NCBI GenBank assembly: GCA_008933995.1
Contig: WARS01000013.1
Location: forward strand, 13,150,808 to 13,214,807
Direction: 5' to 3'
DNA from: Datnioides undecimradiatus
Taxonomy: Eukaryota > Chordata > Actinopteri > Lobotiformes > Datnioididae
DNA: 64,000 bases
Positions 3,401-53,173 of the stretch are shown here, piece after piece. How positions within the stretch are numbered: position 1 is the stretch's first letter; each line of letters opens with the position of its first letter. The notes below the pieces were generated by a model, which worked only from the letters and a program-made list of their open reading frames with translations, was not told where the DNA came from and made no database searches. A program made the translations under genes and the position numbers.

Positions 3401-6400
3401 TGACAAGTCTGACGTTCAGATGAGTTAAGTGTGAAGAGCAAAGAAAGAGTGAAACAGAAACTGTCACTTCAGTTCCACTGTTTGCGTTGCGTTGCAAAAT
3501 GAAGCGTTTCAATAGCTGCAGCCACCAAGTGCTACATGTTATGGGCCCTTCGCTGAGCGTGTTTGCATGCTACACCTACTGCCAAGCCGCGGAAGAAGTC
3601 TTTGATCGATTCCTCGGTGACTTCATAGGGGAGGTTGCCCAAAAATGCAGTGTAAGGTGGACTGCGGGGCAGACGAGACCGGTCAATACTGGGTTCACGC
3701 GCCGAACGTGGCGCTGTAGGCAAAATGGAGCGGTCAATGGGTGGAGCCCGATAGCTATCCTCCTCCGTGTGCCACGAAGTGGAGACTGATGAGAAAGGAG
3801 GACAAAAATTGGTTTTAATAACCTCAAACTTTCTTGGTACTAATAAAAAAATAACGGATTGTTCCCTTTTTGATAGTCCTTCAATCACATCATTATTCTG
3901 TTCTCATGGATGAATTAAACAGACAAAGTTGAAGAAGAAATGTATATAAATTCATGAGTATACATAGCGTCCAATTACATGGATGAAAACATACAGAAGG
4001 AATACATACAAATTCAGAAACGAGTGTGACTAATTGAGACTGGAAACCTTTTTATATCATACGCAATTTCAATTCAGAGGACACTTAAGTGTTCTGTTAG
4101 GTAATTATGAGAGTCAATCACTGTTAGGTCTGATACTAGCTTTTGTTCAGATACTGTAATATTAAAGATATTAAGTACCAAAAGAAATTAAAGTACCATA
4201 AACATTCATAAATTGCTACATTCTGTATGAACTTCTAGAAAGACAACAATCCAGATGTCACTTGACATGTGATCATGTCATGTGTTACTCTTCAAGGAAG
4301 ATAAAGCTGAACACAAAATGTGCAATATGATTATTCAAAATTGTAAGGTTCAGTAGCCCACCTGTTACAAAAAATACAAATGCATCATGCAAGGTAATAT
4401 GTTGATGCGTACTTCAACACAAAGTGCAGAAGAAACTAAATGCACAGAGCAACAGCTCCTGGTGATTAAAACTGAAGACTTAAATTGTTCTATATTAAAC
4501 CACATTCCAGTTAAAACAAGTGCAGAGCAAAGTTTATAGTTTTTACATATGGGGCTAAAACATGTCCAGAAACTAGTTTTACATTGCAAGAAGCAGTGCA
4601 GCAGTTTTGGAAAAGTAACCATATCATTTAAAAAGAATGAAATACTTCATCAATTTAACATGCCATGGCAATAAACTGCAATCTTAGACAGCATGCATTA
4701 AAGGGGTGTGGTTTACATGAAGAAGAAACAAGTATCAGCTGACACTCAATAGTGACATTGGACTGAAAATTTGGTGTGAAGCCGTGTCTACACGGTTAAC
4801 TATCTGTTCTGACCTTTGACTGCCTCGCAACCTAGTAAGACCAGGACTCATTTCACATTCAGTCCAACCAAAACTGTTTACAGCAGCACCAGTTTTAATG
4901 CATTCTTCAACACATTTCAAGTTTTCCCCACACAACTTAGAAACAACCTGAGTGATAGAGAGAAGAGATTGACTTTAATGCTCAAAGGAAAGACGCAAGA
5001 CAGATGCAAGGTATGCGTGATAGAGATTTAATGTGCCACATTTCAGTGTGGCCTCACCATCACCATCCAGGTCATCAGTCTCGTCTGCCCAGCTGGTGGA
5101 CTTGGTTGGGTAGCTAGGGGCCATACTGCCTCCACTGTCTTCTGCCAGGAAGTCAGTGAGAGTGAGGGTCTTCCCCTTCTTATTCTTCTTCTTAGCTAAA
5201 AGGGGAGAGGAACAGAGAGTACACAGTCAGCTGTGAAAGAAACACTGATGTGTGTTAAGGATGTTTCTGAAGACTTTATCAACAGCCTGACCCTTTATTT
5301 GAGAAATATAGATAACCACTAAATAGTTGTGAAATACACACTTGTTTGATATTAAACCTGTTTGTCTGGGAAAACTACAGATGCCAAATAAACTTCCCAC
5401 ATGCCTTTGGGTATAGCGCCAGATGTTAAAGAAGGTGAGTATAAACAAGGTGATTTCAGTCAGTATGGTTTTAGCTTGTATTAATTCCAACTATTAATTT
5501 AAAATAAAAAACATCTACTGTCATTATAATGAGTCTAATGCATGATGCACCACTTTGAGAGTTATTCTTTATAACACAAACAGAAATGTTGCATGTGTGG
5601 GTCTCCATTCATGTGGTCAGCTGTTTCTCTACACAGACATCTCATACTACACTGATTGTACTATGAGATGTTGTCCAGCCAGGCCAGATAAGGGAACTGC
5701 AATGTATGAGTGATAAAAACACTGACTTAAGAAGTAAACACACAGGGAGTGGTCTGCCTGTCCAACTGTCACTGTGCAGCACGCCACAACACACTTGCCT
5801 CTCTGTTAAGTGTGGGTGCAATAATTGAGAAAAGTTCAAACCATTGGGCTGCCCACTTGATGCATTTTTCAAGCAACAAAACCTTGGACTCTGAATCATT
5901 TCAAACCAGTGCAGAACATCCCTCCCACTGTTTGTTTGATAGACCCACAGTTGCCAGTTGATGCACACTGCTCATCTCATTGAGCAGGTCTGGTTTGTTT
6001 TGGTCTGAGGGAGAGCAAAAAAAAAGGGTGGGGGGGGCACAAAGCTGTGCCGTGAGCTTTATTGTGAAAATCCCAGCTGTCAGGACATTCTTTACACGCA
6101 TCAAAACAAAACCTACACAAATAGAGAGAGCTACACAGGCCGTTTACTTCCCTGGGCATAATGCTCTGTCATTGTTTACTGTTAACAGGCCTAACTAACT
6201 GGTCTTGACTCGTTGTATCCACCTAAACAAAAAATCATTAAGTGGCTGTTTGGTAGCTTTCCTAGCACTCCACATTAATATGACATTAGCAAAGCTAGGG
6301 AGCAGTGTAGCGTCAACTTTTGGCAGCAACTTGCTGCTTTCTGCTAAAGCTAATGTTACAGCAGCATAACAGCTACCAGAGCAGACAGTTATCGGGTAAA

Positions 6401-27411: not shown

Positions 27412-27474
27412 TAACATTTCTTGTTTGGGTTCTGTGACCTGAGAAGGATTTAATCATCTATCATTATCCTTTGA
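27412..27474. repeat. Dispersed direct repeat, copy 1
   Basis: A 63-base segment beginning TAACATTTCTTGTTTGGGTT recurs at 28642-28704 in the same orientation with two differences (TCTGTG/TCCGTG and ATCTATC/ATCTTTC). The flanking DNA is unrelated. Confidence 0.9.
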
Positions 27475-28641: not shown

Positions 28642-28704
28642 TAACATTTCTTGTTTGGGTTCCGTGACCTGAGAAGGATTTAATCATCTTTCATTATCCT
28701 TTGA
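28642..28704. repeat. Dispersed direct repeat, copy 2
   Basis: This is the second copy of the 63-base segment at 27412-27474, 1230 bases downstream in the same orientation, with two mismatches. The two copies might be fragments of one repeat family or the ends of a short local duplication. Confidence 0.9.
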
Positions 28705-33800: not shown

Positions 33801-34403
33801 GCCCACCTTAAGAACACTGATCATGCATTAACAACAGATGTTAGTGATCATATTATATATATGCATACATCTTTATATATACTGTACATGCATTTCTGTA
33901 CATTCATGTCCCCTTCATATAAAAAAGGAGAAACACAGAAAACAAATTTAAAAAAGTATGAAAATCCCAACCAAAGTATTGGTACATATATAAAATATAA
34001 TTAATCATTTACTACTCATTACTTTTACCAAAATACTTTCTTGAGGTTGGAGAGGAGGCTGTAATTCACTTCCCAAGGAAATGTATATTTAACTTTTTGG
34101 TGCTGATACAAACTCCATAAACAAACTGCATTCCAAAAAACTATCCAGTAAAGTTAGAGGCATATTCTGCAGTAAATGCCATTCACGTTCACCCAGTAGT
34201 CTTTGTATTTCCAACATCCTACAATTAACTGGATCTGTAATAACACGCATGGTGTGCAGTCAATAGATATAGATGACAACAGTTACAGTCTGTACTATAA
34301 GCAGGTGTGGAAGGATGCCACGACGTAGACGGTTTGTGTGTGTTTGTGTGTTCGACTAGACTGCAAGATAAATGCAAATTCAAATTAACCAATGTCACAT
34401 GAA

Positions 34404-34485
34404 TATCGTCAGCCTCATGGCATATCTGCCTAACTCAAATTCAATCCAACATGAGTTAGGCAGATATGCTATTAGGCTGACGATA
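34404..34485. repeat. Imperfect inverted repeat forming a long hairpin
   Basis: TATCGTCAGCCT (34404-34415) and GCATATCTGCCTAACTCA (34420-34437) are mirrored by TGAGTTAGGCAGATATGC (34452-34469) and AGGCTGACGATA (34474-34485). The two arms pair over about 30 bases, interrupted by one four-base internal mismatch, around a 14-base loop. No terminal features of a named MITE were seen. Confidence 0.88.
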
Positions 34486-34944
34486 TAGCATGGGGGTGTC
34501 AGGTGTGCCTTTTTGACCTTAAACCTGACCTGAATGAGCTCCTCAAGACTGGACTCAATCCTTCAGTTTGATTCTATACTGTAACACTAACAGGAAAGGA
34601 ATGTCATAGGTGTTGCCTTAAATGGCGCAGTGCATACTAGTGAGTAAATACGTAGAGAAGACAAGTGGCGCAGACACTCCTGATTCATTCACACATTGAA
34701 CATTGTTTTCATTCACACTATATGACAACTCATTCATATATTAGGTTAAATTATAGAAAAGTACCCAGACCTAGTTTGAATGTACTGCAGAGATACAAAA
34801 GGAAAGCCTGAAGAGTACATTTCACTAAGTTTAAAATGTTATGATGAGGGTTATCATAAATTGTCACATAGATGTTCCATAGTTGCAGTAGATGGTTGTG
34901 TATTAGATTTGGAGTTGGACATTCATGAGATGAACATTATATGC

Positions 34945-43384: not shown

Positions 43385-46248
43385 ACTATGTTGAAACCAG
43401 GTTTATTTTGTAAAAGCCTTCATCAATGTTGCAGCAAATTACATAAAATAAATCTGAATAAAATACATCAGAAAACTAAGATGTTTGCCTACAATTCTCA
43501 TTATTGTTGTGATAAATGAAAGAAAGAGTTATTTTACTTTAATGCGATAACAGTTTTCCTCACTGAAATTTCACATGGGGGCAGTGCTGTGCCACTTTTC
43601 CATTACTCACTTCCTGCAGTCCACAGGAGATGCATCTTTGGTATGCCAACTCTACATTGTGATTTACAGAAAATATCCAAATCATGATTGTCAGTGGTAT
43701 TCATTCCACTAAACCCGACTCTTTCTGTTACCATGTGGTGATGTGGTTAGCGTGTTGCACAACAATGCAAATGTTCTGTAACTTGCAAAGATACCAGTAT
43801 AGATATTATAAGTGTCTGGTTCTGCCGGTATGAAGGATTTTCGGTTAAAAACAAAACCCAAGCTCTTCTGCTCAAATCTTGACAGGCAGTGCTTTAAACT
43901 TCCAGAGCTGCCAAGGAAAAAAGAAAATGCAACGTCAAGGGAGGATATTTTTATGCTCTCAGTACTGCATGTAACTGGTGAGCATGCAGTTATAGGTGAA
44001 AGGGCATTGCAGCTTGCTCTACTGCTGTGCCTTTTATCATGAGTGAAAAAAACAGAGTGGCCTAAAAGTTTGCAATTCAACTTGACTCCCTTTAAACTCT
44101 TACATGTACGATGACCAGGGAATGGTGACTTTTGGATGTTGGCTACAGCATAAATAGTTGGTGAAAAGAGCATCAGGGTGTGCCCCTGGTGGGCAGATTA
44201 GGTATAAGTATCTGATAGGCCACACACAGACCAGGAAGTAAGAGGGACAGTGCCAGGAAGAGGGTGATCATAAGGACTAAAGGCAATCATAAAAACCTCA
44301 CAAATATAGTATAGGTTATTTCACAGGGGACTCATCTGACTGTATTTACCTATAAAGAGACTTCTAGGCAGAAACTGTGTTGACTGAACTGCAATACATT
44401 CTGCACACAATGGTGTATTTTTAAATGTGCCTTGTGCACTTAAAATCTGTATTGGCTGGTTACCAGGAAAAAGCCTCTCATCATCTTCACCTAAGGCAGA
44501 GAGTACTGGCAGGGATTCTGCATTTAATTGTTGAATTTGGTCCCAGAGGTATTAACGCTGACTCATAATATTGATGCAAGGTCGATGCCAAACTCTGAAG
44601 TTGTAACCATTCATGTTTTCACAGAACTGGTTACATCATCATTAAAACTATTACATGTGATGCATCTTTTCTCCCGAGGACAGACATGAGGAAATTACTC
44701 TTCCAGTTGTTACAAATCCTGCATTAATCCTTTCTGACAAACCAGCTGTCTAGGCTCAAACTTGAACCTTTTATAGCTTGCGGTCCTGTTGTTCTCCGTG
44801 GTGCACCTGTAACTTTCAGTATCGTTGCATGCTTTTGACAATTGTCTTGATACAGAATAAAAGGCTGTAACTAACATGTATGTGTATATGTGAATAAAAG
44901 AAGAGAAATGCCATTACATACACCAGAGAAGTTAATAATTTGGTCTTTGGGCAGCCAATCCTTGAAGAGGCTCACTGGCTGTATTGTTTAATGTTTAGCC
45001 ATTATTCTGTGTCAGCAGGCAATATATCTCTGAAAACAGGTAAATCATGGATGGATTTTGACACAAAGGGCCTTTGGGCACAGGCAGGAAACAGGCTCAC
45101 ACTACCCATCCTACATACAGGAGTACACTGAGAGAGACACAGTGAAGGTTTGCAGTCTTTTTGTCTCTCTTTGTGATACTTTGGTGTCTTTTTGTTGTTA
45201 TACTAAATTCTGTTTTTGTTTTTGCCTCTTTTTGGTACTTTCATGTCTCCTTGTAGTCATATGATTGACTTTCAGTCCTGCTGGTTTCCAGATGATCAAT
45301 ATTAAGATTCCTCTCAAACAAAGACACAAAAAAGGAAAAAGAAAGTCTCCTTAGCCCCTTGAAAACTATCCTCCAGCATATTGTAGTTACACATAAAACT
45401 GCAGTCTGAGATGCAGTGGGAAAGAAAATGGTGTGAGCAAAGTATGGTGTAAGTATAAGGTTTTTTTTTTTTTTTTAAAAACAATAAAACAATAAATACA
45501 AAAACAAGAGGTTTTTTTAGAATAATTATCTGAGATTGTTGAGCACTTACATTACAAGGAATAGCAAATTGGTTTAATTTAAGAGCTGCATGATTGCAGT
45601 TCTTATTGTGCTTTTCTTGTATTTGTTCAGAACTGACTATAACTTTTAACATTTTAACATTTGATTTTAAGTGAAGGTTGTCCATTGTTTTCTAATATCA
45701 TAGATTTTACACAGCAGCATTTTATATCATATGCAGCTCAAACAAGTGGTTGATGTAATTATATTGCATAATTATATATTCACATTTTTCATCATTTTCT
45801 GACACCAAGGTTGATGAGTAATTAGATAAAAACAGGTATTGCTTCCACTGCGGTATATGGTTTCTGTCTGCCTCTTCATTGCACCTACTGTCTATGTCAC
45901 ACTTGCCAAACAACAACTTCACAGATCCTGCTGAGTTGTTGTGGCATAAAATCTGTAAAATAGGAAAAAATATTTCAACTAAAATACTGGGTGTTAGTTT
46001 AAAAAAACAACAAATTGTAATACTGAAAAACTTAGAGCACAAGAAAGTCATGTAATTACAGAATTTACATGAATTATTTACGTTTAGTGTGAAAGCAAGA
46101 TTGCCTGAGGACAAAATAAAGCTGAGCTTCACCAACACATTAGTTGAGGTAAAGCAACAATAACTTGCACCAATAATCATATCATAAAAACCTAAAACAA
46201 ATTTCACATTAAAAAATGAAAAAAATACAGTGTTTTATTAGAATGCAG

Positions 46249-46316
46249 TAATTTCATTAGAACTAATGAAATTAGTCATTTCATTAGAACTCATTTCATT
46301 AGAACTAATGAAATTA
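46249..46316. repeat. Cluster of short palindromes built on ATTTCATTAG
   Basis: TAATTTCATTAGAACTAATGAAATTA (46249-46274) is a near-perfect palindrome. A partial unit at 46275-46290 and a second full one at 46292-46316 follow. The whole cluster can fold in several alternative ways. Confidence 0.85.
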
Positions 46317-46906
46317 CTTCAAGAAAAAAAAAATATTAACTGCAAGCTAAAGGCTGATTCAGGTAATACTTTTCTGGTACCTGTCACTTTCATTAAAATA
46401 TCTGTCCATTTATAGATATCTATGAATACTTATGTTAGGCCATACATACAGCGTAATGTTAGTGTAAAGTGTAATTATTTTGGCACTTTGCAGAGCAGAG
46501 CTTTTATGAATCAGGTTTTGACAAAACACACCTCTCAGTGCAAGCATTTCAATCACTGCACAGCAGAGAAAAGTTAATTAGGAGACTGATCCTTCCATAG
46601 AAAATGACCTTTGTTTTCTTTGCCCTTACGGCTATGTGAAGAAGCACAATAATGAGGTATTGATTGAGGGGGGCTTTTCCACAGGACTGGAAGAAATCCT
46701 CAAGAGCGATTGAAAAGATTGACCTTACCCTTAACCCGAGCCTGGCACTACGATCAATAAACATTACACCTTCAACAAACCCCAACACCTCGATCAATAC
46801 TGGTGAATATCAGCAGCCACGACTGGGAACACTGATGAGCAGTGTGCTGCATCTGGAGTGGGTAAGGGTCAAATCACTTAGCATCTTTGTCAGGTTATAA
46901 TGAGAT

Positions 46907-46942: not shown

Positions 46943-48603
46943 GGATAACTTCCAGGAAAAAAGACTAAGCTAACCCCTAATACATTAATAATGTGACATG
47001 ACTATGACTATGTAAATTTTTTCTTTCTTCCTGAAAAAGAAAAAAAGCTGCCAAATTCCATGACAGTGTTCACATGATGGGGCTCTGTTTACATGATTTC
47101 AAATGGAAGAAAATTATGTTTGTTTTTTTGCATGTTAACAAGCGCCATAAGTCTAAGTTAATATGGCTAAAAGCTAAAAACAGTTAGAGAGCAACATTAT
47201 TATTCATGTGGAGGAGTGTTCTCCTGGTGAGTATAAGTCCAAATATCTGTCTGTTTTAGTGCTGTTTTTGGTCTCTACAAACTCCAGAGAGAAACTACAC
47301 CAAATGTGAGCTGCTTGAAATCTGATTGGCTGCAGTGTTCACAAAAGGGACCTGTTTAATAGTTTCAGAAAAAAACTTTCTGTCCATTCTTCTAAATTAA
47401 ATGAGTAACAGATAACAGGAACACAATCCAAGCCTTCATTTATAATTTATTGCAACACACTGACAAGCTAACATGTTGACAACACTGAGTAATAACAACA
47501 AACTGATGAAGCTAATGAAGTTATTAAAATGTTTAACTGATTTATGGCACGATGACAACTTTGACTTTGACGACTTTGAAAATAAAGGTATGGAATGGCA
47601 CAAGAAGTTAACAATGAAAAAATTAATCAGTGCCTCATCCTCTTAACACCTCAGGATGACAAGTATACCACACAAGCTACAAGAAGTAGATTAAACGTGC
47701 TATTCAGCTCACCACTTCATGTTGAGGCTGACAGACACTAGTCTGCTGTCAAACTATACTTATTGTTTGTCAACTGTATACAATCTTACTGACTTTAAAC
47801 CAAGACTTTAATGCATTCACAAGAAATGCCCCCAGTTGCAAAGTCATATCCACGGTTCTTCTCATTTGGGGGTTGTAGACAAAATTTCCATTGCATAGTT
47901 GCAATGGCAATGTTGGTAATTATTGTCCCAGGTACATAGAGTTATGGCTTGTAAAATACTTTTGATTCTAATTGGAAAACAGAATGAAATTATGTGTTAG
48001 TTGGGCTACTCAAAAAGATCAAGTGTATGTAGGCTTCATTAATAAATCTGTGAAAGAGAAATTCAGACAGAAATCAGATAGAATTAATGTTTTACACTGT
48101 ACTTGTACTGTATTAGTGCTCTCTAACACATACTACCAGTCCTCCTTGTGTCTTTTCATCTTTTAATTCTTCAGGCACACTGTTAGAAACAAATAAAATG
48201 TGGTTAACATTGAGAGTTAACAATACTAATGATCACCAATGTATCATTACATTGACAAACAGGAGATATGTTTGTGGTTGTCAGGAAGACAAGGTCTTCT
48301 TTAGCAGGAAAATGTTGCAAAATGTTTTCCATATTGAACACACCTCAGGGTTCCTTACCAGATGTTTCTACTTACCAATCACTTATCATGGCTTCAGTTT
48401 CCTTTAAAAGAAATTTTAAGGACCTTGTGAACATTGTGGAGAGGCTCTTGAGGAAGACATCTTGCTCCAGTGGCAGGTATGAACTGTGTTGTTTTTTGCG
48501 TGTTTAAATGTTAATGAATCATTATTTGTGGTTTGATTATGGCAGTTTCTTGCAGGAATCACAGAGCAGATATAACCCTTATTTTTCCATTCACTAAACC
48601 AAA

Positions 48604-49363
48604 ATGATGTAAGTAGACCTCTAGACTTGTACCAGTGGAGTGAAATTGATCAAATTACTGACAGATTTCCTCTTCTGCAGATCATGGATCAGAAGCTGCA
48701 GCCCCAGTGGCCACCGGCTCGGTGTGGCAGCCAATTTCTTCTCCATATTGGTTCAGACGAACAAGGGTGAGCTCTGACCCAGGCAGTTTCTCCTCTCTAC
48801 CAAGTCTACCCAGCTCAAACTCTAACAAAGCAACTGAACTTCCTGCTTCTCAAGATGCCACTTCCAGTGCTGGCCCTGGCAATTACAACAGCAACCTCAA
48901 TGTTGCTGAAAGTGAAACATCCAGTGGCTTTGCTAATTTTCGGAGTGATAGCTCTAATAGCCCTGACGTCAGTGAATATTGGGTTGCTTATGCAGCTTCT
49001 CAGCCTAGTGGGTACGACAGCAATGCTCCAGGTGGCAACTATGCTAGCTCAGATATTGCTCATGGACGGGACGGCTCCTATGGATTTGTAGCAGCCCCTG
49101 CAGATGAAAATTGGAGCGCTGGATCTGCCAGCAGCTACAGTGAAGAAAACCCTGAGCCAGTCTTCAGTGGCGTGTCTGATCTGGAGCCAGTGTACTCATT
49201 CAGCTCTCGTTCAAGCTACCAGCGTGGGAGGGCAGTGTTTGCTCAAACCCGCTACACCCCAGGAGAGCCTGCTCCTCCACTCATGCCAGTACCCAAATAT
49301 GCCAGCAAAACCACTTCAATGCAAAGAAGTCCTGTTAAAGCTCAAACAAAAGGAGGCGTCTAA
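48604..49363 (+). pseudogene. Copy A of an unrecognised secreted-protein gene, lacking its signal-peptide exon
   Basis: The main exon starts at 48681, after CTTCTGCAG, and stays open from CAT (48683) to the stop at 49363. It encodes a Ser/Pro/Tyr/Asn-rich protein body that includes VWQPISSPYWFRRTRV and ends near MPVPKYASKTTSMQRSP. It differs from copy B by 18 residues and no indels. Exon 1 appears to end at 48476 and exon 2 spans 48546-48608, ending ATGAT before GTAAGT. Between exons 2 and 3 about 136 bases present in copy B are missing, including the 59-bp signal-peptide exon. Joining exon 2 straight to exon 3 starts in the wrong frame and stops after about 33 codons. The open frame has no ATG until near its C-terminus. 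I therefore infer loss of the secreted product. An assembly deletion or a displaced alternative first exon are the other possibilities. Confidence 0.65.
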
Positions 49364-49488
49364 AGATCTTTCTGGTAAGGTACAGTTTACCCAAATCTAG
49401 CATATTGTATGTTGACTGAAAATTAACCTGTCTTTTATCTTGCAGGCATCAGTGTTCCTGTTTCATTGCTGCTGCATGATCTGATGCC

Positions 49489-49494
49489 AATAAA
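49489..49494 (+). terminator. Candidate poly(A) signal of copy A
   Basis: AATAAA lies in what looks like a non-coding last exon starting at 49446, after TATCTTGCAG. An intron with donor GTAAGG at about 49375 would interrupt the 3' UTR. Confidence 0.5.
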
Positions 49495-49699
49495 CAGGTT
49501 TCATACAATGTCTTTTCTTGTTGGATGCTTGCATTGTGGAATGACACCTGTAGATGGTCAAATTTCCAGTGGGAAATATTAGCAGTATTTTGTCTAACGT
49601 TCCCATACAGTTGGTAGGGTATTCGAATAGTGGGCATGATTGTGCTGCTAATGCAACAGGCCATTGGTAGACCTTACAAGTCATAGAGCTTATGACTAA

Positions 49700-50415
49700 A
49701 AAATCCTTCTCTCTATGCCACCTTTACAACCTCAAGCCTCCAATTTGGCAGTTTTGTGTAAACTCAGGCTGAAAGAATGTGATCTTGGCCTACAAACAAC
49801 TTCTGAGGTGGCTTTTGGTGGGGAAAGATAGTGGCATCAGTTATTCCATGCTGACGTCTCTGCTTGCTTGGACCAAAGCATAGGTTTGGGAAAACTCCAC
49901 TGAATCTATTTCAAACTGCACCACCTATAGCCTGCATGGCAGACTTATTTAAAATTTTTAAGGCAGAAAAGAGACATCTGTTCACAAAAACTAGGATTTA
50001 ATTGGATGGCAGTTCAGAAGGATGCATGTCCAACCAAGAAAACTGCAGTGCGTACCTAGCTGGCCAGATTACACAGCCAAGGGGAAAAACTCATGATAGC
50101 CCTGGAGGAGTCAATGATGGAACAGCTGAGGATTTTAGCTTAGTATAGCAGCTGCCACTGTGTCATGGTTATGTTTATAAATAACTGGGGTTTTTTTTTG
50201 TTTTTTTTTTTTCTATTATATAGCTCACCTAAACTCCAGTGGTTACTGAGGTTTACACCAAAACTTCTATACATTTTAAAGGCATTGTGTGGTAGAACTG
50301 AGTTTTCTATGAACAAAATATTTCATATCAACCCCTAAACATGATTAATGTGAGGGCACCTTTTTATGGGTCTCCTGTAAAACTTCACATAAGTATATTT
50401 CATCTTCCCCACTTC

Positions 50416-50450
<35 letters not shown>

Positions 50451-50750
50451 ACTTAAAATTGAAGTATAGCCCATGACCTGATTTGTTTCTCAGCAGCTTA
50501 CTTCTGGTATCACTTTGATGTTGATGGTGGGCAGTCCAGTGTGCTTGGCCACACTGCTGATACATGTGATTTGGTTTTGGAGATTTGTAACCCTGTGTTA
50601 AATTTAAGCTGCAATAAAGTTTTGTTAATGAGAAGTATATTTAATTTACACACAAGTTTATTGTAGATAGGGTCAGGATAATTATTTGCTATTTCACACA
50701 ACTGTAAATTTTTTTGTTCTAAAATACCAGTTTGTTATTGTGCATATTAT
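49700..50750. other. Spacer between the tandem copies
   Basis: No gene is seen. A T-rich block near 50190-50215 (GGGTTTTTTTTTG...) and a 30-base poly(T) at 50418-50447 are present. The area around 50140-50260 weakly resembles 53500-53600, so it may be a worn piece of the same duplicated unit. Confidence 0.45.
50418..50447. repeat. Poly(T) tract of about 30 bases
   Basis: This is an uninterrupted T run. It may be a retroposon tail on the minus strand or simple slippage. Confidence 0.9.
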
Positions 50751-50754
50751 TATG

Positions 50755-51060
50755 ATACCATACAACAACACCCAACCCAGCCACAATCTGTTCACCCTTC
50801 TGCCATCTAACCAGTGTTACATAAGTATCCGCTGCTGTACAACCAGACTAAAGAACAGATTTTTCCCTCTGAATGGGAAATTCTTTAACTTGTCCTACTT
50901 TCTTCACCATATGTATAAAAACATGCAATGTTACACTGATATTGCACATACTGCACATGCTTTCCACATATTATACCATAGTCTGGGTGGATACTTGATT
51001 CTGCTTGACTGCAGGCTGCTAATTTATTCATGACAATTGACTTCTGTTAAGTAGTTCTAG
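50755..51060 (+). mobile_element. LINE ORF2 C-terminal fragment
   Basis: The plus frame reads HNLFTLLPSNQCYISIRCC, then TTRLKNRFFP. This matches the C-terminal block of fish L2/Rex-type LINEs (LLPSGRRYRSIR...ARLKNSFYP). The following GCACATACTGCACATG-like text is typical of the same elements' 3' region. It is 5'-truncated, and no target-site duplication was identified. It lies inside the spacer between tandem copies A and B. Confidence 0.7.
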
Positions 51061-51685
51061 TAATACTGTCTGTTTACCTTTCTAATTTAATGCATCACCT
51101 GGTTCCAGTGTACCAACAGTAACACAGTAAATACCTATGTTTTCAAAATTATTGCTACACATTAAAAAGGACACACATGGGCTAACTAAAGCAATAAGTG
51201 ACATCAAAATTTCTTTTAACCTTTTTGGAGAATATGACAACTTTGATGACATGAATGCAGCTAAAAAAAGTGAGAGGAAAACAAAAAGAACTTCATTATC
51301 TCATCCTTTGAAGTATGAGATAACAAATGTAACACAAACTGCAAGACGAACACTGCCCCTCTGAACATACTGATACTTTGAATCACATTAACAATTATTT
51401 CATGTCCAATGCACTATCCAACTCACTACTCACCACTACTTAAGACCACAGCAGACAGCAGATTACTATGACATTGTTTGACAACTGAATGCAATGTTAC
51501 TGAGGAACCAAAGGGTTCTATGAACAGACAAGAAACATCTCCTGTTGCCAAGTTGCATCTAAGATTCATCCTATGTTCTGGAGTAGTCTACAACATTTCC
51601 ATTGCATAAGAATCCTATAAAATGACTATTCCTAGTATTGGCTAAAGAATGTAAGTGGAGTAAATAAAGTTAAAGATTAAACATT

Positions 51686-51723
51686 AAATATATCTTTTAT
51701 TAATCCCACACTGGGGAAATGTA
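51686..51723 (-). mobile_element. 3' tail of an L2-like LINE or SINE
   Basis: On the minus strand this reads TACATTTCCCCAGTGTGGGA then TTAATAAAAGATATATTTAA. It is the conserved stem and tail (CCCC...GGGATTAATAAA) of many fish L2-clade LINEs and their SINEs. Only the tail is recognisable. It lies in the upstream flank of copy B, and I do not see it at the matching place in copy A. Confidence 0.7.
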
Positions 51724-51946
51724 TGATTAAAAGCTGCAAAACATGAAATGAAAACATTAATAACATGTCATTGATGATATCCCTATGACATTTAACAAAC
51801 AGGAGAAAACATATTTATTCGTTGTGGAGGAAAATATTTGTTTGATCAGGAAAAAGATTGTAAAATTGTTTTCAAATTAAACACACCTTACGTTTCCTTA
51901 CCAGCTGTTCCTACTTGGTAATCAATTAAGACACCTTTGGGATCCT

Positions 51947-51954
51947 TTAAAAGA
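51947..51954 (+). promoter_or_regulatory. TATA-like box of copy B (with an equivalent in copy A)
   Basis: TTTAAAAG is conserved at the same place in copy A (48403-48410). It lies about 65 bases before the end of the presumed non-coding exon 1, whose donor GTATGC follows 52019 (GTATGA after 48476 in copy A). Its retention in both copies while surrounding bases diverge supports a role as core promoter. Confidence 0.55.
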
Positions 51955-52163
51955 AGCTGTTGAGGTCCTTGAAACATTGTGGACAGGCTCCTGGTGAAGA
52001 CATATTGCTCCAGTAGTAGGTATGCAATATCTTTGGCTGTTTTTCTTCTTGTCATGGCCTTTGTTAAGCATTGAAGAGACCAGCATTCTGTGTTTTGCTT
52101 TTTCAGTTTCTTGGAGGAATCGCAGTGTAAACTAGCTTGAATTTCTCAACTCACTAAACCAAA

Positions 52164-53059
52164 ATGATGTAAGTAAATGACTGACTTAACTTATGACTGA
52201 TAACAATAAAACAAACTCTAAAGACAACCTGTTAATAGGATGTTGTGGATTTCATGTCTGCTGATTGGAAGCGTAACCTGTAGTCTTGTACCAAAAGGTA
52301 AGCTGATATGCCTACTCTAGACTTGTACCAGTGGAGTGAAATTGATCAAATTACTGACAGATTTCCTCTTCTGCAGATCATGGATCAGAAGCTGCAGCCC
52401 CAGTGGCCAGCAGCTCGGTGTGGCAGCCAATTTCTTCTCCATATTGGTTCAGACGAACAAGGGTGAGCTTTGACCCAGGCAGTTTCTCCTCTCTACCAAG
52501 TCTACCCAGCTCAAACTCTGACAAAGCGACTGAACTTCCTGCTTCTCAAGATGCCACTTCCAGTGCTGGCCCTGGCAATTACAATAGCAACCCCAATGTT
52601 GCTGAAAGTGAAACATCCAGTGGCTATACTAGTTTTGGGAGTGATAGCTCTAATAGCCCTGACGTCAGTGAATATTGGGTTGCTTATGCAGCTTCTCAGC
52701 CTAGTGGGTACGACAGCAATACTCCAGGTGGCAACTATGCTAGCTCAGATATTGCTCATGGAGGGGACAGCTCTTATGGATTTGTAGCAGCCCCTGCAGA
52801 TGAAAATTGGAGCGCTGGATCTGCCAGCGGCTACAGTGAAGAAAACCCTGAGCCAGTCTTCAGTGACGTGTCTGATCTGGAGCCAGTGTACTCATTCAGC
52901 TCTCGTTCAAGTTACCAGCGTGGGAGGGCAGTGTTTGCTCAAACCCGCTACACCCCAGGAGAGCCTGCTCCTCCACTCATGCCAGTACCCAAATATGGCA
53001 GCAAAACCACTTCAATGCAAAGAAGTCCTGCTAAAGCACCAACCAAAGGAGGCATTTAA
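52164..53059 (+). CDS. Copy B: unrecognised secreted Ser/Pro/Tyr-rich protein
   Basis: Coding exons are 52164-52168 (ATGAT), 52239-52297 and 52377-53059. All borders are GT-AG and in phase, giving 747 bases and 248 residues. The middle exon supplies a signal peptide, MMMLWISCLLIGSVTCS in the spliced reading, with cleavage probably just before LVPK. The mature part opens DHGSEAAAPVASSSVWQ. It has no obvious repeats, is rich in Ser, Pro, Gly, Tyr and Asn, lacks cysteine as far as I can see, and carries an acidic patch (SEENPEPVFSDVSDLEP) before a basic, proline-rich end (AQTRYTPGEPAPPLMPVP). No known domain is recognised. Two non-coding exons seem to flank it: exon 1 ends at 52019 and exon 2 starts at 52107. 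The composition suggests an extracellular structural protein, such as an egg-coat or mucus component, but that is a guess. Confidence 0.75.
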
Positions 53060-53173
53060 AGGTTTTTGGTGAGATGTAGTTCACTCAAACTCTAATGTAT
53101 TTATCACCTGAAAGCTCTCTATCTTGCTGGTGTCAGTGTTCCTGTTTTCATGTCTGCTGTATGATCTGATAAT

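Follow-up and report, generated by a model that had tools for sequence, protein, structure and literature searches.

Loss of the signal-peptide exon beside a probable gene-conversion tract in one of two tandem DUF1373 genes of Datnioides undecimradiatus

How can a gene copy that lacks the exon for its signal peptide keep its main exon open from end to end? This question is raised by two tandem gene copies, designated A and B, which lie 3.7 kb apart at 48-53 kb of a 64,000-nucleotide stretch of the Datnioides undecimradiatus genome (contig WARS01000013.1, positions 13,150,808 to 13,214,807), referred to here as the window. Coordinates are window positions, and both copies are read on the plus strand. 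The original prediction had noted the missing exon in A and offered three explanations, namely a very recent pseudogene, a gene with an unseen alternative first exon, or an artefact of assembly or polymorphism. Analysis of the sequence favors the first of the three. Copy A is probably a young pseudogene for a secreted product, the main exon of which was refreshed by gene conversion, and it was perhaps broken in the conversion event itself. The loss of the exon is supported, while the open frame becomes less puzzling once it is seen that the main exon has been homogenized with that of B.

It was first supposed that the gene could not be recognized. However, both main exons match DUF1373 of Pfam (PF07117), with E values of 1.1e-26 for A and 2e-27 for B. 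The profile is 145 positions long with a curated cut-off of 28.9 bits, which both copies exceed well. The spliced protein of B covers positions 1-144 at 128.6 bits, its N-terminus and signal peptide included, while the main exon of B alone covers positions 17-144 at 97.5 bits. The main body of A covers the same positions 17-144 at 95.2 bits and is without the N-terminal part. In B, a putative exon 2 (52117-52168, acceptor assigned by eye) ends in ATGAT (...AAAATGAT) at 52168, with the donor GT at 52169. It is followed by exon 3 (52239-52297), the 59-nt signal-peptide exon absent from A, which lies between the acceptor TAATAG and the donor AAG/GTAAGC, and by the main exon, from 52377 to the end of the stop codon at 53059. 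The coordinates first given for exon 3 hold, and the 34-residue spliced start of B, to which exons 2 and 3 contribute 21 residues and the main exon 13, matches profile positions 1-25 (E 3e-7, 32.1 bits, above the cut-off). Exon 3 is therefore real and no chance open frame, being the N-terminus of the DUF1373 family itself. Because the profile, built from family members elsewhere, includes this exon, it is ancestral and was lost by A. A recent gain of exon 3 in B was considered and ruled out, since the exon belongs to the family profile. The moderate score of B, with 218 residues placed on 144 positions owing to insertions, suggests that B was not itself a source of the profile. Pfam describes the family from medaka. 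A literature search for DUF1373 and PF07117 found no paper, and the gene models presented here are supplied for a little-studied family.

The loss in copy A can be located precisely. The interval between GTAAGTA and CTCTAG comprises 139 bases in B (52176-52314) but only the three bases GAC in A, a net loss of 136. The positions originally reported in A were confirmed, with GTAAGTA at 48609-48615, GAC at 48616-48618 and CTCTAG from 48619, so that the deletion junction at 48616-48618 carries a 3-nt filler in place of 139 nt of B. Upstream of the junction lies the putative exon 2 of A (48556-48608, acceptor assigned by eye), comprising 5' untranslated region (UTR) and ATGAT. Its body is diverged from B, but in its last 18 nt and in the donor there is no difference between the copies. 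The intron left by the deletion is read from its splice sites as 72 nt (48609-48680), from the donor GTAAGTA to the acceptor TTCTGCAG, and is followed by the main exon at 48681-49363. As had been stated, this exon is open over 226 codons (227 residues with the split codon), with no indel relative to B. Nevertheless, a known start in frame is wanting: a TGA at 48659-48661 stands just upstream in the main-exon frame, and there is no in-frame ATG until near the end of the exon. If the intron at 48609-48680 were removed, the main exon would be read in the wrong frame from ATGAT, with a stop after 33 codons. No Pfam family was matched by this out-of-frame peptide up to E 10. The disabling change is thus the absence of the signal exon, with the remaining splice sites leading to a 33-residue out-of-frame product.

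The whole genome (581 Mb) was searched with the family profile in six frames and with the DNA of copy A, the best candidates only being scored in each search. The N-terminal part of the profile (positions 1-25) was matched beside B only, and not in A, in the six-frame search; this gives no sign that exon 3 was relocated elsewhere in the genome, although no search at the DNA level was made for it. Because the lost exon belongs to the family profile, A is the derived copy. A possible 71-nt intron was also seen by eye in the 3' UTR of A (49375-49445, GTAAGG to TTGCAG), where the acceptor of B near 53070-53130 reads TTGCTG. If it were spliced, nonsense-mediated decay might be expected for transcripts of A, in which the out-of-frame stop comes early.

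The open frame of the main exon is best understood from the distribution of identity between the copies, a point missed in the original prediction. A three-segment change-point fit to 1256 aligned columns gave an identity of 65.5% before A 48591, 97.2% at 48591-49334 and 76.7% thereafter. The gain in log-likelihood was 103, whereas none of 200 shuffles, run on a coarser grid, exceeded 11. In the flanks, 162 of 524 columns differ, while in the tract the number is 19 of 716. The fit places the left edge at 48591-48596, from where it is 20-25 bases to the deletion junction, and the right edge at 49327-49342. The partner of the tract in B, to the right of the deleted stretch, is 52315-53030. Interlocus gene conversion is recognized by a sharp change of identity within diverged flanks, as found here, and by high identity also at silent and intronic sites. 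Regarding the latter, all 62 of 62 bases at the intron end within the tract are identical between A and B, and the synonymous divergence (dS) of the main exon is 0.045. The nonsynonymous divergence (dN) is 0.035, with no significant difference between the two (Fisher p 0.63). Both values cover the entire main exon and with it 29 bases beyond the tract, which hold 6 of the 25 differences. Protein constraint as the cause of the main-exon identity is ruled out, because the intron end is identical and the silent sites are close as well. The standard reading of such a step is recent interlocus gene conversion between A and B, which we adopt here.

A similar situation is known from CYP21A2 and its pseudogene, which are linked by gene conversion (PMC3843699). 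In pairs of this kind functional and broken duplicates exchange sequence, and the broken copy can look too young. The present pair differs in that the break is close to the edge of the tract and removes the whole signal-peptide exon, and it has no known medical or dosage role. The low divergence between the main exons of A and B dates the conversion, and not necessarily the exon loss.

The closeness of the deletion to the left tract edge raises the question of whether a single event accounts for both the conversion and the deletion. The filler GAC with the preceding TA forms TAGAC, which recurs 3 nt into the right flank (48622). Such a recurrence has a chance of 0.013 on that strand and side, or 0.05 in any way. 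This recurrence, together with the closeness of the edges, fits an abandoned copying from B that was sealed by end joining. Templated insertions have been described in Drosophila, as has synthesis-dependent strand annealing that is completed by end joining (PMC2895639). The one-sided copying of a template that ends in a short templated insertion would fit the junction of A, with the difference that A offers a single historical junction from which the mechanism is deduced.

On the other hand, all 25 bases to the left of the deletion (48591-48615) are identical between the copies. The 5' flank as a whole has 68% identity, and the 29 columns of exon 2 that directly precede the run have 55%. This makes it likely that the tract spans the site, and it weighs against a single event. 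When the columns of the 5' flank were shuffled 20000 times, a run of this length appeared in 109 cases, and the change-point fit too places the left edge at 48591-48596. If these 25 bases are part of the tract, then the tract spans the deletion, and the deletion would be later than the conversion. In such a history, conversion over 48591-49334 would have been followed by an ordinary deletion of 136 bp net in A. Copy A would still be a young pseudogene, with a loss younger than the conversion. A sequence of two events has a considerable chance of being correct, though somewhat short of even. However, the start codon with its context and the splice donor all lie in the 25-base block, and their identity in A and B may be due to selection. 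If so, one event suffices, and one event is also simpler. A third order is possible as well, in which the deletion came first and a later conversion stopped at it. A literature search on conversion with heterology found no paper.

Taken together, these features allow a probable course of events to be proposed. Two old tandem copies of a DUF1373 gene with a secreted, Ser/Ala/Pro/Gly-rich product lie next to a keratin cluster. The main exons of A and B, and the adjoining intron end, would recently have been homogenized by gene conversion. Copy A lost 136 net bases, and with them the signal-peptide exon, where the tract begins on the left or in its immediate vicinity. Copy A was thereby left without a known in-frame start for a main exon whose openness would represent recently refreshed sequence. 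In the single-event form, which is the less sure part, a break in A would have been followed by copying from B, which was abandoned, and then by end joining of the polymerase-theta type, leaving the TAGAC filler. If deletion and conversion were indeed one event, the gene was disabled by the same act of repair that renewed its main exon.

Does the open frame of A mean function? With 10 neutral changes, the chance that A would show neither a stop nor an indel by now is 0.31, and with 13 it is 0.22, taking about half of the 19 tract differences to lie on the branch of A, 0.086 indels per substitution (the ratio in the flanks) and a stop fraction of 0.031. If the main exon was recently overwritten, few changes have had time to occur, and its openness says little about function in either direction. 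An open reading frame is accordingly weak evidence that a duplicate works, since after conversion a broken copy looks as young as the exchange itself. The ratio dN/dS is about 0.8, taken from 25 differences of both branches together, and is not different from 1. Eighteen residues are replaced between A and B, of which 10 lie in the part aligned to the profile. At residue 164, a conserved position of the family, A has Gly and B has Asp, and the Asp of B scores 4.2 bits better. Polarity was assessed by eye with a further DUF1373 fragment of the genome as the outgroup (the C7 fragment, described below). There were 13 differences from 49067 to the stop, of which 2 in the last codon were left out since their alignment was not trusted. 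Among the remaining 11, 8 were informative, 6 being derived in A and 2 in B. Inside the tract the counts are 4 in A and 2 in B, too few for a conclusion. Signs of decay in A are indicated weakly.

Several observations weigh against the reading of A as a pseudogene. For the other 9 of the 10 profile residues, a change to the residue of B has an effect of -1.2 to +0.6 bits. The residue of A is slightly favored at 7 of the 10, so that A does not look generally degraded. Copy A also keeps a TATA-like box and its splice sites, and in its upstream 2.6 kb there are two signal-like open stretches where 0.26 were expected. The box and the two stretches bear on the possibility that A functions through a different, unseen first exon and yields a protein with another N-terminus, as would also agree with the open main exon and the retained acceptor. 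The two stretches, at 46266-46362 and 47811-47931, each have an ATG, a hydrophobic run and a phase-1 donor that fits the frame. Against a background that excludes this region, the expectation of 0.26 applies to a hydrophobicity of at least 2.0, and the count of two then has P 0.03; one stretch is left at a threshold of at least 2.5 (P 0.13) and one at a threshold of at least 3.0 (P 0.05). An initial count had put these candidates at chance level (P 0.24 for at least one), a view that was dropped after the recount, with P 0.03 to 0.13.

The excess is small, however, and the cut-offs were picked after the region had been seen. Both stretches lie upstream of a promoter-like block that is common to A and B. 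At the hydrophobic end of 47811-47931 the alignment has no counterpart in B, and the absence of any Pfam match for 47811-47931 at E 0.001 also counts against a first exon there, while 46266-46362 overlies a 100-bp inverted repeat. Moreover, dN/dS is not different from 1, and the open frame is explained by conversion. An alternative first exon is accordingly unlikely. Its more specific form, in which a once-secreted DUF1373 protein acquired a different start and is now kept in the cell or sent elsewhere, with conversion with B keeping the main exon in step, would be more improbable still. The reading of A as a pseudogene implies that it would make no protein.

The TATA-like element mentioned above, TCCTTTAAAAGAA at 48400-48412, is common to A and B and lies upstream of the putative exon 1. 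At 13 nt it is the longest identical run in the 5' flank columns (48225-48590), and it may serve as a promoter. It was further observed that the shared promoter-like blocks, A 48351-48412 and B 51894-51955, comprise TTCCTTACCAG, continuing into an E-box that reads CAGATG in A but CAGCTG in B, as well as TCCTTTAAAAGAA. Oocyte genes often use E-boxes, but single E-boxes are common by chance.

The missing exon could also represent an assembly error or a polymorphism of the sequenced haplotype, since highly similar tandem copies are prone to error. Against this stand a contig of 23.3 Mb, a window without N, and a junction filler that looks like repair rather than collapse between identical blocks. 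In addition, no exon-bearing version of A was found elsewhere in the genome among the best candidates of the DNA and profile searches. An artefact of this type is hence improbable.

The predicted product of B comprises a signal peptide and 227 residues, of which 48 are Ser, 24 Ala, 24 Pro and 19 Gly. A single-sequence structure model of its main exon had a mean predicted local distance difference test score (pLDDT) of 35, which indicates nothing beyond possible disorder. As a guess, the product of B may be a secreted, largely disordered protein of a coat or matrix.

Regarding the rest of the family, the best candidates of the profile search were the main exons of A and B, exon 3 next to B, and a fragment on C7 (C7:2125489-2125744; L008 about 4872-5150). 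Among its best candidates, the search with the DNA of copy A gave A, B and the same fragment only. The fragment is 67-69% identical in DNA to A and B, and its DUF1373 match is below the cut-off, with internal stops and small gaps. It appears as a third, older and dead copy that has decayed. Beyond the window, 19.8 kb on the downstream side and 9.9 kb on the upstream side gave no significant match to further copies, the best protein match having E 0.82.

The tandem pair adjoins a cluster of keratin genes. The keratin exons of the window include heads of type II keratins at 18.3 and 39.3 kb and, on the minus strand, a filament exon at 11.8-12.3 kb. An RRM exon is located at about 3.5-3.9 kb, likewise on the minus strand. 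A literature search on the keratin neighbors found no paper. Between the keratin genes there is a direct repeat of 63 bp (27412-27474 and 28642-28704), the copies of which are 97% identical and 1.2 kb apart. Imperfect inverted repeats were observed at 34403-34486 (86% self-complementary) and at 46233-46332 (75% self-complementary), and these are possibly small transposons or hairpins.

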